This document shows, piece by piece, positions 1,248-43,303 of a DNA stretch of 47,713 nucleotides (position 1 is its first letter; every line of letters starts with the position of its first letter). Origin of the DNA: Flavobacteriaceae bacterium (GTDB taxonomy: Bacteria; Bacteroidota; Bacteroidia; Flavobacteriales; Weeksellaceae). Under the pieces are notes generated by a model. That model saw only the letters and a program-made list of their open reading frames with translations. It searched no databases and was not told the DNA's origin. The translations under genes were made by a program, and so were the position numbers. Location of the stretch: contig JAITMJ010000009.1 of assembly GCA_031277475.1 (NCBI GenBank), positions 1 to 47,713 on the forward strand, written 5' to 3'.

Positions 1248-4200
1248 TCAGAAATTCGCTTTCACTTGCATACTTCCGATGTGGATGGTTCTTTCACCGG
1301 AATTTCTGCCTTCGTAATTGAGATTTAAAGTGATGAAAGCATTGATTGCTTGCTGAAAAAACAAACTCCAAACTTGGTTTTTCCCCGGTTTCAAACCGTC
1401 CAACATTTGGTTGCCCACGATTGAAAAACTCTCGCCCGAAAATCGGTTGTTAATAAACGAAAAATTCCCGCGAACAGACGTTTTTTTGTGTTCCCACTGC
1501 AAAGTTCCGGTGATGTCAAACGTTTTCAGAAATTCCGCACCGTCCGTTCTTTTCTTTTCGCGAAGTGCCGAGGAAAGTTCCGCCTGAATGTCCGTCGTGA
1601 ATTTGTAGGTGATTTTCGGTTTGGTTTCAAAATTTTGCAGCGTGTAGTCCCGCGTTTTAAAAAGTTCCGAAGCATTCCCGATATTTTGAAGGGAATTTTC
1701 CCAATCTGCCCGAAAATCTTTGGTAAACCAATAGCCGATGGTCAAAAAATTGGAAGTTACTTTTCGCGTTTCGTTACTGAAATTCGCATTGATGAGATTA
1801 TCATTCGCGATGAAGCGATAACTTCCGTTCCAGCCCGATTTATCCGTAGAATTGAACTGTGCCGAAAGCAAAATATTTTGATTTTTCAGAATTTGATCCT
1901 CATTTTTTTCAAACGGATTCAGCACAAAAACCTTGTCTTTTTTAAAGTAAGAATTTTCCGAATTTAGCGACAGATTGAAGTTCCAGCGTTTCAGAAAAGC
2001 GTTTTGAGAATTGAAAATCACAGACGGATTCACGAACATTGCCAGCGTCATTTTATTTTTGTTGGACGGAACGTAACTCGTTGTATTTGTGTAGATTCTG
2101 ATGTATTGCGCCAAATCCGCATATTCCGCAATTTCAAATTCGTCTAACTGCTGAATGCCGTCTCCGTTGTAATCCGTCCATTTGTAAACGCCCTGTCCAT
2201 CGGTCACTTTCAGATATTGAAACTCCCGCTGCGCTTCTTGTCCGTTTCCCAATTCATAAAAAAATTGCAAACGCATTCCATTTTTAAAAAGTTGCTGATT
2301 GTACAAAATATTTCCGACCACAAAATCTTGATTCAAATTTTCAACTAAATTTTCATTTTGATAGTAAAATTTTCGGTAATGGATTAAAGCGTTTAAAGTC
2401 GTTTTTTCAGTTTTGATGATTGAACTTTCCGTCATAATTCCGAGAATTTGATTCATATTTTCGAGCGCGTTGTTTCGGATGGAATCATTATCCCGAAAAT
2501 AAAGTTTTGTGAAAAGTTTCGTGCGCGCGGAATCGCCGATTTTTTTCTGAACAAAAACTTCTTTCCAACTGAAACTCGTGGTATCAAAAATCCCTGTATC
2601 ACTTGTTTTTTTAAGGTTTCGTTCCATATTTCCGCCGATGCCCCAACTTCCTTTTTTTCCTGTCAATTCGGAAATTATTCCGCCGCGAACGAATTTCGTA
2701 TCCAAAGTTTCGGATTGCGTATCGAGGTAAGAAAAGTTTCCTTTCGTGTTGAATTTTCCTGAAATCCAACCAAAATCCACATCGTTTTTAATGCCTTTGT
2801 AAGAATTTTTTTCGTCTAAATAATTCAATTTATAGTTCAAAAAAGAGGTGTTTTTCCATTGATTTAAAAAGTTAAAAATAAACCGATTTTGCAGTTTTTG
2901 GTTAAATTCTTGAAGTAAATTAAAATCCCGCGCAAATTCCACATCGTTGATTCGGTCTAAAATATGAAACCGCTCCGTAATTCGCTGATATTCAAAACTC
3001 GGCGTTCCTTTCCAATTGTTTTTTCCGAACGTTTTAGCCCCGAAAATTCGCCCTGCGAAACCTGCATTTTGCGAAGCGTCTTTGGATGAAAACGTATTGA
3101 TGTCATAATTGCTGAACGAAAGATCTGTCCCGATTTTTCCGCCTTCAAAAACATATTCGGAATTGAGGGAAACTACGGCAGTTTGCTGTGGTGAAGGCAG
3201 TTTGCGAACCGCTCGATAATCTCCGAGATTGGCACCGACGTATTCAAAAACGCGTCCGTTGTTCGTGGTTTGCGTCAAAATATAATCGCCCAAATTCGCC
3301 CCGAAAAACGTAAACGCCACTTGATATAAAGTTGCATTTTCATCGGTAGAAAATTGGTAATAATTTCCGGTCGGCGAAACGATGAGTTCATACAAAATTT
3401 TGTTCACATCATATTCGGAAACCGTTCCTGAAGGCGCATACATCAAATCGGGATCGTTTCCGGCGTTTGCCAAAAGTTGCTGATCTTCTTCGCTTAAATT
3501 CAGAGAAAGCGGCGCATTTTTATTGTCGTTTTCCAAAAACCAATTCACTCCGATTTTGAATTTTTCGCGCTGATGCCGGACATTTCCGGTGAAAACATAT
3601 CTGGAATAATTTCGATTGGTATAATTGTAGGAAACCGTGATGAAATTCTCTTTAAAAATCGGTCGGAAACTCGTAAAGGTGAGTTCTCCGGTGTTGTAAT
3701 TAATCACATAATCCTGATTTTCACCACGTTTCATTAAAATTCCGTCAATAAAAACCTGTTCCGAACCGGAAATTATGGTAATGAAAAGTTCGCCGTTTTT
3801 TCCTGTCAATCGGTACGGACCTTGATTTCCTTCCACGCCTTGAAATCGGATTCTGTGAAATTCGCTTCGGGCAATTCCGGCGGAAACATCGAGGAAAGTT
3901 TTGTTTTCTTTTCCGAATTGCGTTTGAAATTGCAAGCCCATATTTCGCCTTTGATAACGCCCGAAATAGGTAGTTTCGTCGTTCAAATCCAAATGTCCGG
4001 CTCGAATGATGGTTTTTTCTTTGATGTTGAGTTGGAGATAAATTTTATCAAATTCTTCCAGAGTTTGTGTGTATCCATCGGCTTGAATCGGCAAATTGTG
4101 GTCTGAAATGGAAGCCAAAACCGAAACATCGTTTGAAAGTTTTCCGGTGATTTGCAAATCCATCATACTTTGCACAGACGAACCTTGATTGTTTCCAAAC

Positions 4201-41777: not shown

Positions 41778-42197
41778 CTAAAATACGTCTCGTCCGGAAA
41801 AATGAAATCGTGTTTCGATTAAAGCGTTTTCATCGGAATCCGAACCGTGAACGGCATTTTCTCCAACGCTTCTGGCAAACGTTTTTCTGATGGTTCCTTC
41901 CGCTGCATTTTCGGGATTTGTAGCACCAATCAACGTTCGGAAATCTTCAACCGCATTGTTTTTTTCCAAAACTGCGGCTACAATCGGACCTCGGCTCATA
42001 AATTGAACCAACTCGTTATAGAAAGGTCTTTCCTTGTGAATTTCGTAAAATTTTTTCGCATCGTCAATGGTTAATTGCGTGAGTTTCAACGCTTTGATTT
42101 TAAAACCCGCTTCGGAAATTTTTCCCAAAATAGCACCGATGTAGCCATCTTCAACCGCATCGGGTTTGATCATTGTAAATGTAATATTGCCTGACAT
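41778..42197 (-). CDS. ndk: Nucleoside diphosphate kinase
   Basis: 139 residues, usual length. It balances nucleoside triphosphates by a ping-pong phosphotransfer. Landmarks are [20 protein letters not shown] at the start, [29 protein letters not shown], and the phospho-accepting His 117 in [12 protein letters not shown]. The last part ([12 protein letters not shown]) is typical. A -7-like TAATTTTG (minus, 42219-42226) lies about 22 bp before the start, back to back with a + strand promoter. Confidence 0.97.
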
Positions 42198-42214: not shown

Positions 42215-42246
42215 TTTGCAAAATTAAGAAAAAGTTATTAAATTTG
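42215..42246 (+). promoter_or_regulatory. Bacteroidota-type promoter facing into the ndk-rsgA gap
   Basis: TTTG (42215-42218), 20 bp, then TAAATTTG (42239-42246). Expected start near 42250. It matches the primary sigma consensus well. Confidence 0.5.
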
Positions 42247-42282
42247 CACCGAAGATTCTAAACGTGAAGTTTTCGGAAATAC

Positions 42283-42300
42283 TTTGGCACGTTTGTTGCT
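42283..42300 (+). promoter_or_regulatory. Sigma-54-type (-24/-12) promoter motif
   Basis: TTTGGCACGTTTGTTGCT fits TGGCACG-N4-TTGCT exactly, with GG (42286-42287) and GC (42298-42299) separated by 10 bp. The expected transcript start is near 42311. Confidence 0.45.
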
Positions 42301-42355
42301 AATTATATCTCCGATTCTCATGTTTAATTTGAGTTTTCATGGTTATTAGTTTTTA

Positions 42356-42384
42356 CCCCGTCGTTCAGACGGGGTTTTATTTTT
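42356..42384 (+). terminator. Intrinsic terminator
   Basis: Stem CCCCGTC (42356-42362), loop GTTCA, stem GACGGGG (42368-42374), followed by TTTTATTTTT. Strong in the + direction; the minus direction gives a weaker tail for rsgA. Confidence 0.8.
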
Positions 42385-43303
42385 CCGAATTTTCCTGTGT
42401 TTCTTCCATCAATTTTAAATATGTGGAATATCGGCTTTCTTCGATTTCACGGTTTTTTATGGCATCCAAAACGGCGCATTTCGGTTCGTTGATGTGAAGG
42501 CAATTATGAAATTTGCACATTCTTCCGGTTTCAAAAATTTCGGAAAAATAGTGCTGAATCTCATCTTTTTCCACGTCTATCATTCCAAATTCTCGAACGC
42601 CGGGCGTATCAATCGCGCTTCCGCCGAAACTCCAAAAAAACATTTGCGCAAAAGTGGTGGTGTGTTTTCCTTTGAGATGAACGTCTGAAATTTCGCCGAT
42701 TTTTAAATCTAAATCGGGTTGCAAAACATTGATTAAAGTAGATTTTCCGCAACCGGAATGTCCGAAAAATACGGAGGTTTTGTGTTTGATTTTTTCCTTT
42801 AAAACCTCCAAATTCAGTTTGGAAAAAGAGGAGATTTCCAAAGTCTCGTAACCGATTTTTTTGTAAATATTTTCAATATTTCGCACGATTTCGGTTTCAT
42901 TTTCATTCATCACATCCATTTTGTTAAATAAAATCAGAGGTTGGATGTCGTAGGCTTCGCAACACGCCAAAAACCGATCGAGAAAACCGAGCGAAGTTTC
43001 GGGAAAACGCAACGTAAAAATAAAACACGCAACATCAATATTCGCCGCAATAATGTGGGATTCTTTGGAAAGATTTACGGATTTTCGGATGAGGTAGTTT
43101 TTTCGAGGTTCTATTTTTGTAATCCACGCAATATCATCCTGTTCCAAGTGAAATTCCACAAAATCGCCGACTGCAAGCGGATTCGTCAGACGCGTTTTCA
43201 GCAGTTTGAATTTTCCTCGGATTCTCGCTTCGTAGGTTTTTCGGGTCGCGTTTTCCAAAACTTGATACCAACTGCCCGTAGATTTTATGATTAAACCTTT
43301 CAA
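42377..43303 (-). CDS. rsgA: Small-subunit ribosome biogenesis GTPase RsgA
   Basis: 308 residues. An OB fold (about 1-75) precedes a circularly permuted GTPase: G4 NKMD at 127-130, G1 GHSGCGKSTL at 181-190, then the switch TTTFAQMFFW and G3 IDTPGVREFG. The C-terminal zinc-binding segment has CKFHNCLHINEPKC. It acts late in 30S maturation. A clear promoter (TTG-N20-TACCTTTG, minus; -7 box 43326-43333) precedes it. Its stop codon lies inside the terminator of the candidate small RNA on the other strand. Confidence 0.96.
   Translation of the reverse strand: MKGLIIKSTGSWYQVLENATRKTYEARIRGKFKLLKTRLTNPLAVGDFVEFHLEQDDIAWITKIEPRKNYLIRKSVNLSKESHIIAANIDVACFIFTLRFPETSLGFLDRFLACCEAYDIQPLILFNKMDVMNENETEIVRNIENIYKKIGYETLEISSFSKLNLEVLKEKIKHKTSVFFGHSGCGKSTLINVLQPDLDLKIGEISDVHLKGKHTTTFAQMFFWSFGGSAIDTPGVREFGMIDVEKDEIQHYFSEIFETGRMCKFHNCLHINEPKCAVLDAIKNREIEESRYSTYLKLMEETQENSEK

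Follow-up and report, generated by a model that had tools for sequence, protein, structure and literature searches.

The window, meaning the whole stretch of 47,713 nucleotides that was analysed, contains a gap between two minus-strand reading frames, ndk (41778–42197) and rsgA (42377–43303). For an RNA read from the plus strand of this gap, ndk is the divergent neighbour, a landmark for the orthologous position of the sigma-54-type copies described below, and rsgA is the convergent neighbour, whose stop codon lies within the terminator tail. As the initial annotation had claimed, the list of reading frames holds no plus-strand gene of credible size in the gap. Its other features, all on the plus strand, are a primary-type (sigma-A) promoter (42215–42246), a sigma-54-type promoter element (42283–42300) and an intrinsic terminator (42355–42384). 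By its own promoter, its own terminator and the absence of coding potential, the locus would thus appear from its sequence to be an independent small RNA gene.

The sigma-54 –24/–12 element TTTGGCACGTTTGTTGCT, made up of TTTGGCAC-GTTTG-TTGCT, is an exact match in which GG (42286–42287) and GC (42298–42299) are separated by 10 bp, so the motif and spacing proposed for 42283–42300 can be read directly from the sequence. The 12-base motif of the initial annotation is expected by chance about 0.002 times in the window. For the 11-base form TTGGCAC-N5-TTGC, the base composition predicts about 0.75 exact chance occurrences in the 2.99-Mb genome, where one was found; the motif by itself is therefore weak evidence. 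In the same genome the sites with one mismatch (48, or 49 including the exact one) were not above a reversed-pattern control (54), and a sigma-54 regulon built from them was dropped, the examined sites that keep GG and GC lying mostly within reading frames. The element was accepted because it is conserved across genera. When 19 representatives, drawn from about 15 genera, are compared column by column, TTGGCA-N6-TTG does not vary in any of the 19, TTGGCA is followed by C in 18, and TTG is followed by C or T, the GC of the –12 region being replaced by GT in some genera; most spacer and upstream bases are near random, and GG is separated from the hairpin of the RNA by a distance of 30 or 31. The representatives were chosen using a motif pattern, a selection bias that is small because no ndk-linked copy failed the pattern: the –24/–12 element is present in 126 of the 126 retrieved ndk-linked copies, a count that includes repeats, since loci overlap between searches. 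The conservation of the GG-N10-GC motif in relatives, on which the earlier proposal depended, is therefore established across genera. A chance motif next to an ordinary intergenic terminator, with no RNA gene at all, would agree with a motif that alone is about as frequent per genome as chance predicts, but conservation over about 26 genera, together with the finding of paralogues at unrelated sites, refutes this reading in practice, and its probability is negligible. On the evidence of conservation there is very little doubt that the small RNA gene is real and has a working sigma-54 promoter, from which we infer that it is transcribed; the initial proposal of a small RNA with a sigma-54 promoter is supported to this extent.

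The predicted transcription start, set 12 nt past the C of the –12 GC, falls at position 42311, and in the aligned copies the conserved RNA begins at the predicted sigma-54 start in every case. From this start a short form of about 70–74 nt (42311–42384, plus strand, with both ends predicted) would be produced, and covariance model R1 matches positions 42313–42380 of the sequence. The RNA would open with a 5′ hairpin, CTCA-loop-TGAG (42317–42333, plus strand), or CUCA/UGAG as RNA, the stem of which is retained in loop variants that differ in length and sequence among copies. This is followed by the near-invariant stretch TTTTCATGGTTATTAGTTTTT (42334–42354, plus strand), which is the presumed pairing region; in alignment A1 of 28 diverse copies this open stretch of about 21 nt, UUUUCAUGGUUAUUAGUUUUU, is predicted to be single-stranded and is conserved nearly letter for letter across genera. 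The strong terminator reported to follow the motif was recovered by a terminator scan, with a stem, ACCCCGTC/GACGGGGT, at 42355–42375 and a T-rich tail that reaches about 42384, and it is predicted for the plus strand only, because the opposite side of the stem yields no minus-strand T run. In the alignments the terminator stems of other copies stand at the same place and differ in sequence, so that in relatives, where conservation of the hairpin and terminator was to be checked, both are kept or independently rebuilt. The common form of the conserved stretch also holds an ATG-to-TAG frame for a nine-residue peptide, MFNLSFHGY, but the changes are concentrated in the loop and not in third codon positions, and variants that drop the ATG or shift the frame nevertheless keep the hairpin and the open stretch; because such frame-breaking variants exist the small reading frame is excluded, and hardly any weight is left for a peptide as the reason for the conservation.

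The primary-type promoter was found just upstream as the initial annotation described, with TTTG at 42215–42218 and a –7 box, TAAATTTG, at 42239–42246 of the plus strand. The –7 box of ndk, TAATTTTG, occupies positions 42219–42226 of the window on the minus strand, near this opposite-strand promoter, so that transcription of the two units would begin at nearly adjacent points and run in opposite directions. A plus-strand TAnnTTTG box is found at a fixed distance upstream in 13 of the 19 representatives, with a corresponding start at 42251 in the window, and is missing from the Chryseobacterium representative and several others; the suggestion that the RNA has two starts is thus supported for the 13 and not for the remainder. 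Where it is, the long form would extend to about 130 nt (42251–42384, plus strand) and would start with a GAAAATTC-like sequence complementary to GAGTTTTC of the core, its first bases, GAAGATTC (42251–42258), being able to pair with GAGTTTTC at 42331–42338. The fold of the long form from this genome has a z-score of –4.8 against leader-only shuffles, with none of 200 shuffles as stable, and leader pairing is better than chance in several other genera too, while it is weaker or absent in some. The predicted leader fold would hide UUUUC and leave GGUUAUUAGUUUUU open. Given the conserved TAnnTTTG box, the paralogues that are clearly driven by such boxes and the chance frequency of the exact sigma-54 motif, it might be argued that the RNA is real and that its main promoter is the one at 42215–42246, or belongs to another sigma factor, the GG-N10-GC motif being unused by sigma-54. 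We consider this very unlikely, since the –24/–12 element is invariant with or without the TAnnTTTG box, is correctly spaced and stands at the proper distance from the conserved RNA start.

The machinery that the sigma-54 promoter would require is encoded in the same genome. The presence of rpoN, on which the earlier proposal could have failed, is indicated by a PF04552 match (E = 2.4e-51), and two strong PF00158 genes encode sigma-54 enhancer-binding activators. No PF17209 match for Hfq was found in the 98% complete assembly, so that pairing would have to proceed with a different helper or unaided. In Flavobacterium psychrophilum, sigma-54 promoters lie ahead of groESL, dnaK, grpE–dnaJ, htpG, lon, clpB, skp and a gliding operon (PMC9723704). 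By analogy with this regulon, the small RNA may take part in the response to protein and envelope stress.

Of 296 genomes of the Weeksellaceae, the family to which this one belongs, 270 are matched by a 185-base query, and with weak matches excluded the match table gives a strong match in about 26 of 33 genera; among the matches listed, the exact core is found in named records of Chryseobacterium, Kaistella, Epilithonimonas and Bergeyella. In the family genomes with no match, the inspected regions beside ndk have neither the motif nor the core. Two genomes that had matched, G013 and G022, contain diverged copies, which in G022 lies about 350 nt away from ndk. Outside the family the covariance model returned no strong members, only marginal matches, and the eleven of these that were inspected do not resemble the small RNA. 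Against Rfam 15 no match exceeded the gathering score, the matches with E values up to 5 being weak and unrelated, and the open literature, a scope that leaves aside most subscription papers and all bioRxiv preprints, contains no description of the RNA in Chryseobacterium, Riemerella or Elizabethkingia. In the context table of retrieved copies, ndk adjoins nearly all sigma-54-type copies and rsgA is not adjacent to the RNA in several genera. With high probability the locus is a true small RNA gene driven by sigma-54 and a member of an often multicopy, apparently undescribed Weeksellaceae family, the latter going beyond what the initial annotation had claimed.

Among 156 distinct copies, 82 are sigma-54-type. 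The 97 retrieved copies near neither ndk nor rsgA comprise 50 with a primary-type promoter and 47 with another promoter, and five sigma-54-type copies are not placed beside ndk, both counts again including repeats from overlapping loci. The paralogues have the same RNA start, with TAnnTTTG promoters instead of the sigma-54 element, and further classes are formed by TTGGCAC-N5-TT(C/T)(A/G), by a degenerate GG-N10-GC and by one copy behind a tRNA. In the TTGGCAC-N5-TT(C/T)(A/G) class the sigma-54 –24 region and the spacing are kept and the GC of the –12 region is replaced, mostly by CA; about 30 Chryseobacterium copies (between L062 and L175) stand behind TTGGCAC-N5-TT(C/T)(A/G)AT. In four primary-type copies (L048, L116, L150 and L153) the –7 box is preceded by a GTCTA...TAGAC palindrome that may be a repressor operator. 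The minus-strand copy of L118 lies directly behind a tRNA-like 3′ end and lacks its own promoter, an arrangement suggesting that tRNA processing generates the 5′ end of the RNA, whereas the tRNA-Leu reported at this locus (3265–3345) is on the plus strand. Several copies occur per Chryseobacterium genome, some in tandem with differing terminators; contig 3 of Chryseobacterium cheonjiense has three tandem copies in about 1.3 kb (L061, 1067–2289, and L102, 299–775), each with its own promoter and with terminators that differ. Since in the paralogues the RNA is retained behind sigma-A or other promoters, the RNA and the promoter are separable modules, and the occurrence of near-identical bodies behind different promoters argues strongly that function resides in the RNA itself. 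One might go further and suppose that duplication has spread a single RNA body through Chryseobacterium and its relatives, and that this body has been wired to separate inputs (sigma-54, a primary sigma factor with varied upstream sequence, a –24-like promoter with an altered –12 region and a tRNA-adjacent site) with an identical, Hfq-free antisense output covering start codons, a reading that we regard as possible rather than probable.

The complement of the open stretch, AAAAACUAAUAACCAUGAAAA / AAAAACTAATAACCATGAAAA, resembles a translation start region, and pairing is therefore most likely near translation starts. In 22 genomes the antisense 13-mer was found outside RNA genes about 34 times, against 12 for the reversed control, the division between RNA genes and other sites being made by inspection. 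Several sites lie 13–59 nt upstream of start codons; the genes concerned include members of the PF14905 outer-membrane family, in more than one genus, as well as a tail-sheath-like gene and short genes of precursor-like appearance, the last two names resting on the look of the sequences. In the genome analysed here, start-region pairing was not above that of shuffled seeds by duplex energy or by longest complementary run, and it was weakly above them in the genomes G031 and G059; these tests used sampled start regions and shuffled seeds that retain CAU. The long antisense pattern gave one site with three mismatches in the same genome apart from the small RNA gene, counts of upstream words showed no enrichment there, and a 13-nt site on its contig C37 was withdrawn because it lies inside a reading frame. 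Upstream words were enriched in Chryseobacterium loci, but those loci had been picked for their nearness to the RNA. For PF14905 the summed score of 266.5 exceeds those of all 100 shuffled seeds (maximum 266.0), the family having been picked after the matches were seen. With this slight margin, the post hoc choice of family and an orthologue in the genome analysed here that has no pairing site, PF14905 was rejected as a conserved target. Upstream of the PF14905 gene, five loci (L330, L331, L334, L341 and L345) have long A- and C-rich leaders, in which a GC-rich stem encloses repeated TAATAACC-like words between its two arms and T-rich sequence comes after it, an arrangement that may be an attenuator. 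Short reading frames at L213 (980–1040) and L217 (970–1040, minus strand) have start regions that agree with the complement of the open stretch for 21–28 nt, with no more than one or two mismatches, and may be strong targets or decoys.

Because the start-region tests are near null and the PF14905 relative in this genome has no site, pairing is the favoured inference and is not presented as a result. A real and conserved small RNA that binds a protein, for titration or as a scaffold in the manner of CsrB or 6S RNA, with the open stretch as the protein site, would account for some 21 nt conserved nearly letter for letter across genera, and a fixed partner would suit the absence of a clear target set. 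This alternative is nevertheless unlikely, as the stretch has no repeated or structured binding motif, is mostly single-stranded and is the complement of a start-like sequence, and as the antisense 13-mer is enriched over its reversed control. Pairing with mRNAs, most likely as a trans-acting antisense RNA, is the likelier mode of action and has a reasonable claim to be correct. Taken as a whole, the best explanation of the locus is that it probably encodes a sigma-54-driven, mRNA-pairing regulatory small RNA.

Comparative sequence support covers the promoter, the RNA start, the hairpin, the terminator, the orthology beside ndk and the paralogues, and the action of the RNA may be pictured from these as follows. 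Under a protein or envelope stress signal, as suggested by the F. psychrophilum sigma-54 regulon, RNA polymerase with sigma-54 and one of the two enhancer-binding activators would initiate at about 42311, and would stop at the intrinsic terminator; the product, about 70 nt long, would comprise a 5′ hairpin, a 21-nt open stretch and a terminator hairpin. The open stretch (GGUUAUUAG) would pair with other RNAs and lower their translation without Hfq, and mRNAs with AACUAAUAACC-type leaders would be those expected to fall under antisense repression. In many genera, including this one, the primary promoter would add a longer RNA, the 5′ end of which would fold over part of the core.

The initial annotation held that a sigma-54-driven small RNA would be new; the family is apparently new, but the kind is already known, because Rfp36 of Flavobacterium psychrophilum, with its start site at 840245 of the map for that species, is reported as a putative regulatory RNA behind a sigma-54-type –24/–12 (SM4) promoter (PMC9723704). 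Rfp36 thus resembles the present RNA as a putative small RNA behind such a promoter in a flavobacterium, and homology between the two, compared by description only, looks unlikely because searches beyond the family of the present RNA yielded no relative of it. Rfp18, a conserved flavobacterial small RNA whose deletion alters metalloprotease mRNA levels in F. psychrophilum, has a stem-loop as its predicted pairing region, whereas in the present RNA, again compared by description, this is a single-stranded stretch (PMC9723704). Few small RNAs have been characterized in Bacteroidota, and in a genome with no detectable Hfq a near-invariant, often multicopy small RNA tied to sigma-54 in most of the family offers a handle on the role of sigma-54 and on Hfq-free small RNA action, while the same core under several promoter types allows different inputs to a single RNA output to be compared as they occur in nature. 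The proposed logic, in which a stress sigma factor leads to an antisense RNA and to less synthesis of envelope proteins, is that of the MicA/RybB-type envelope-stress RNAs of enterobacteria, which depend on sigma-E and Hfq, whereas sigma-54 and putative targets are involved here. The Qrr small RNAs of Vibrio are sigma-54-dependent, multicopy RNAs with a shared core that act as antisense RNAs in trans and use Hfq and LuxO. The present RNA is similar to them in its sigma-54-type promoter, its several copies, its shared core and the antisense action proposed here, although the sequences are unrelated and no Hfq was found in this genome, and, unlike the Qrr RNAs, most of its paralogues have left sigma-54 control.
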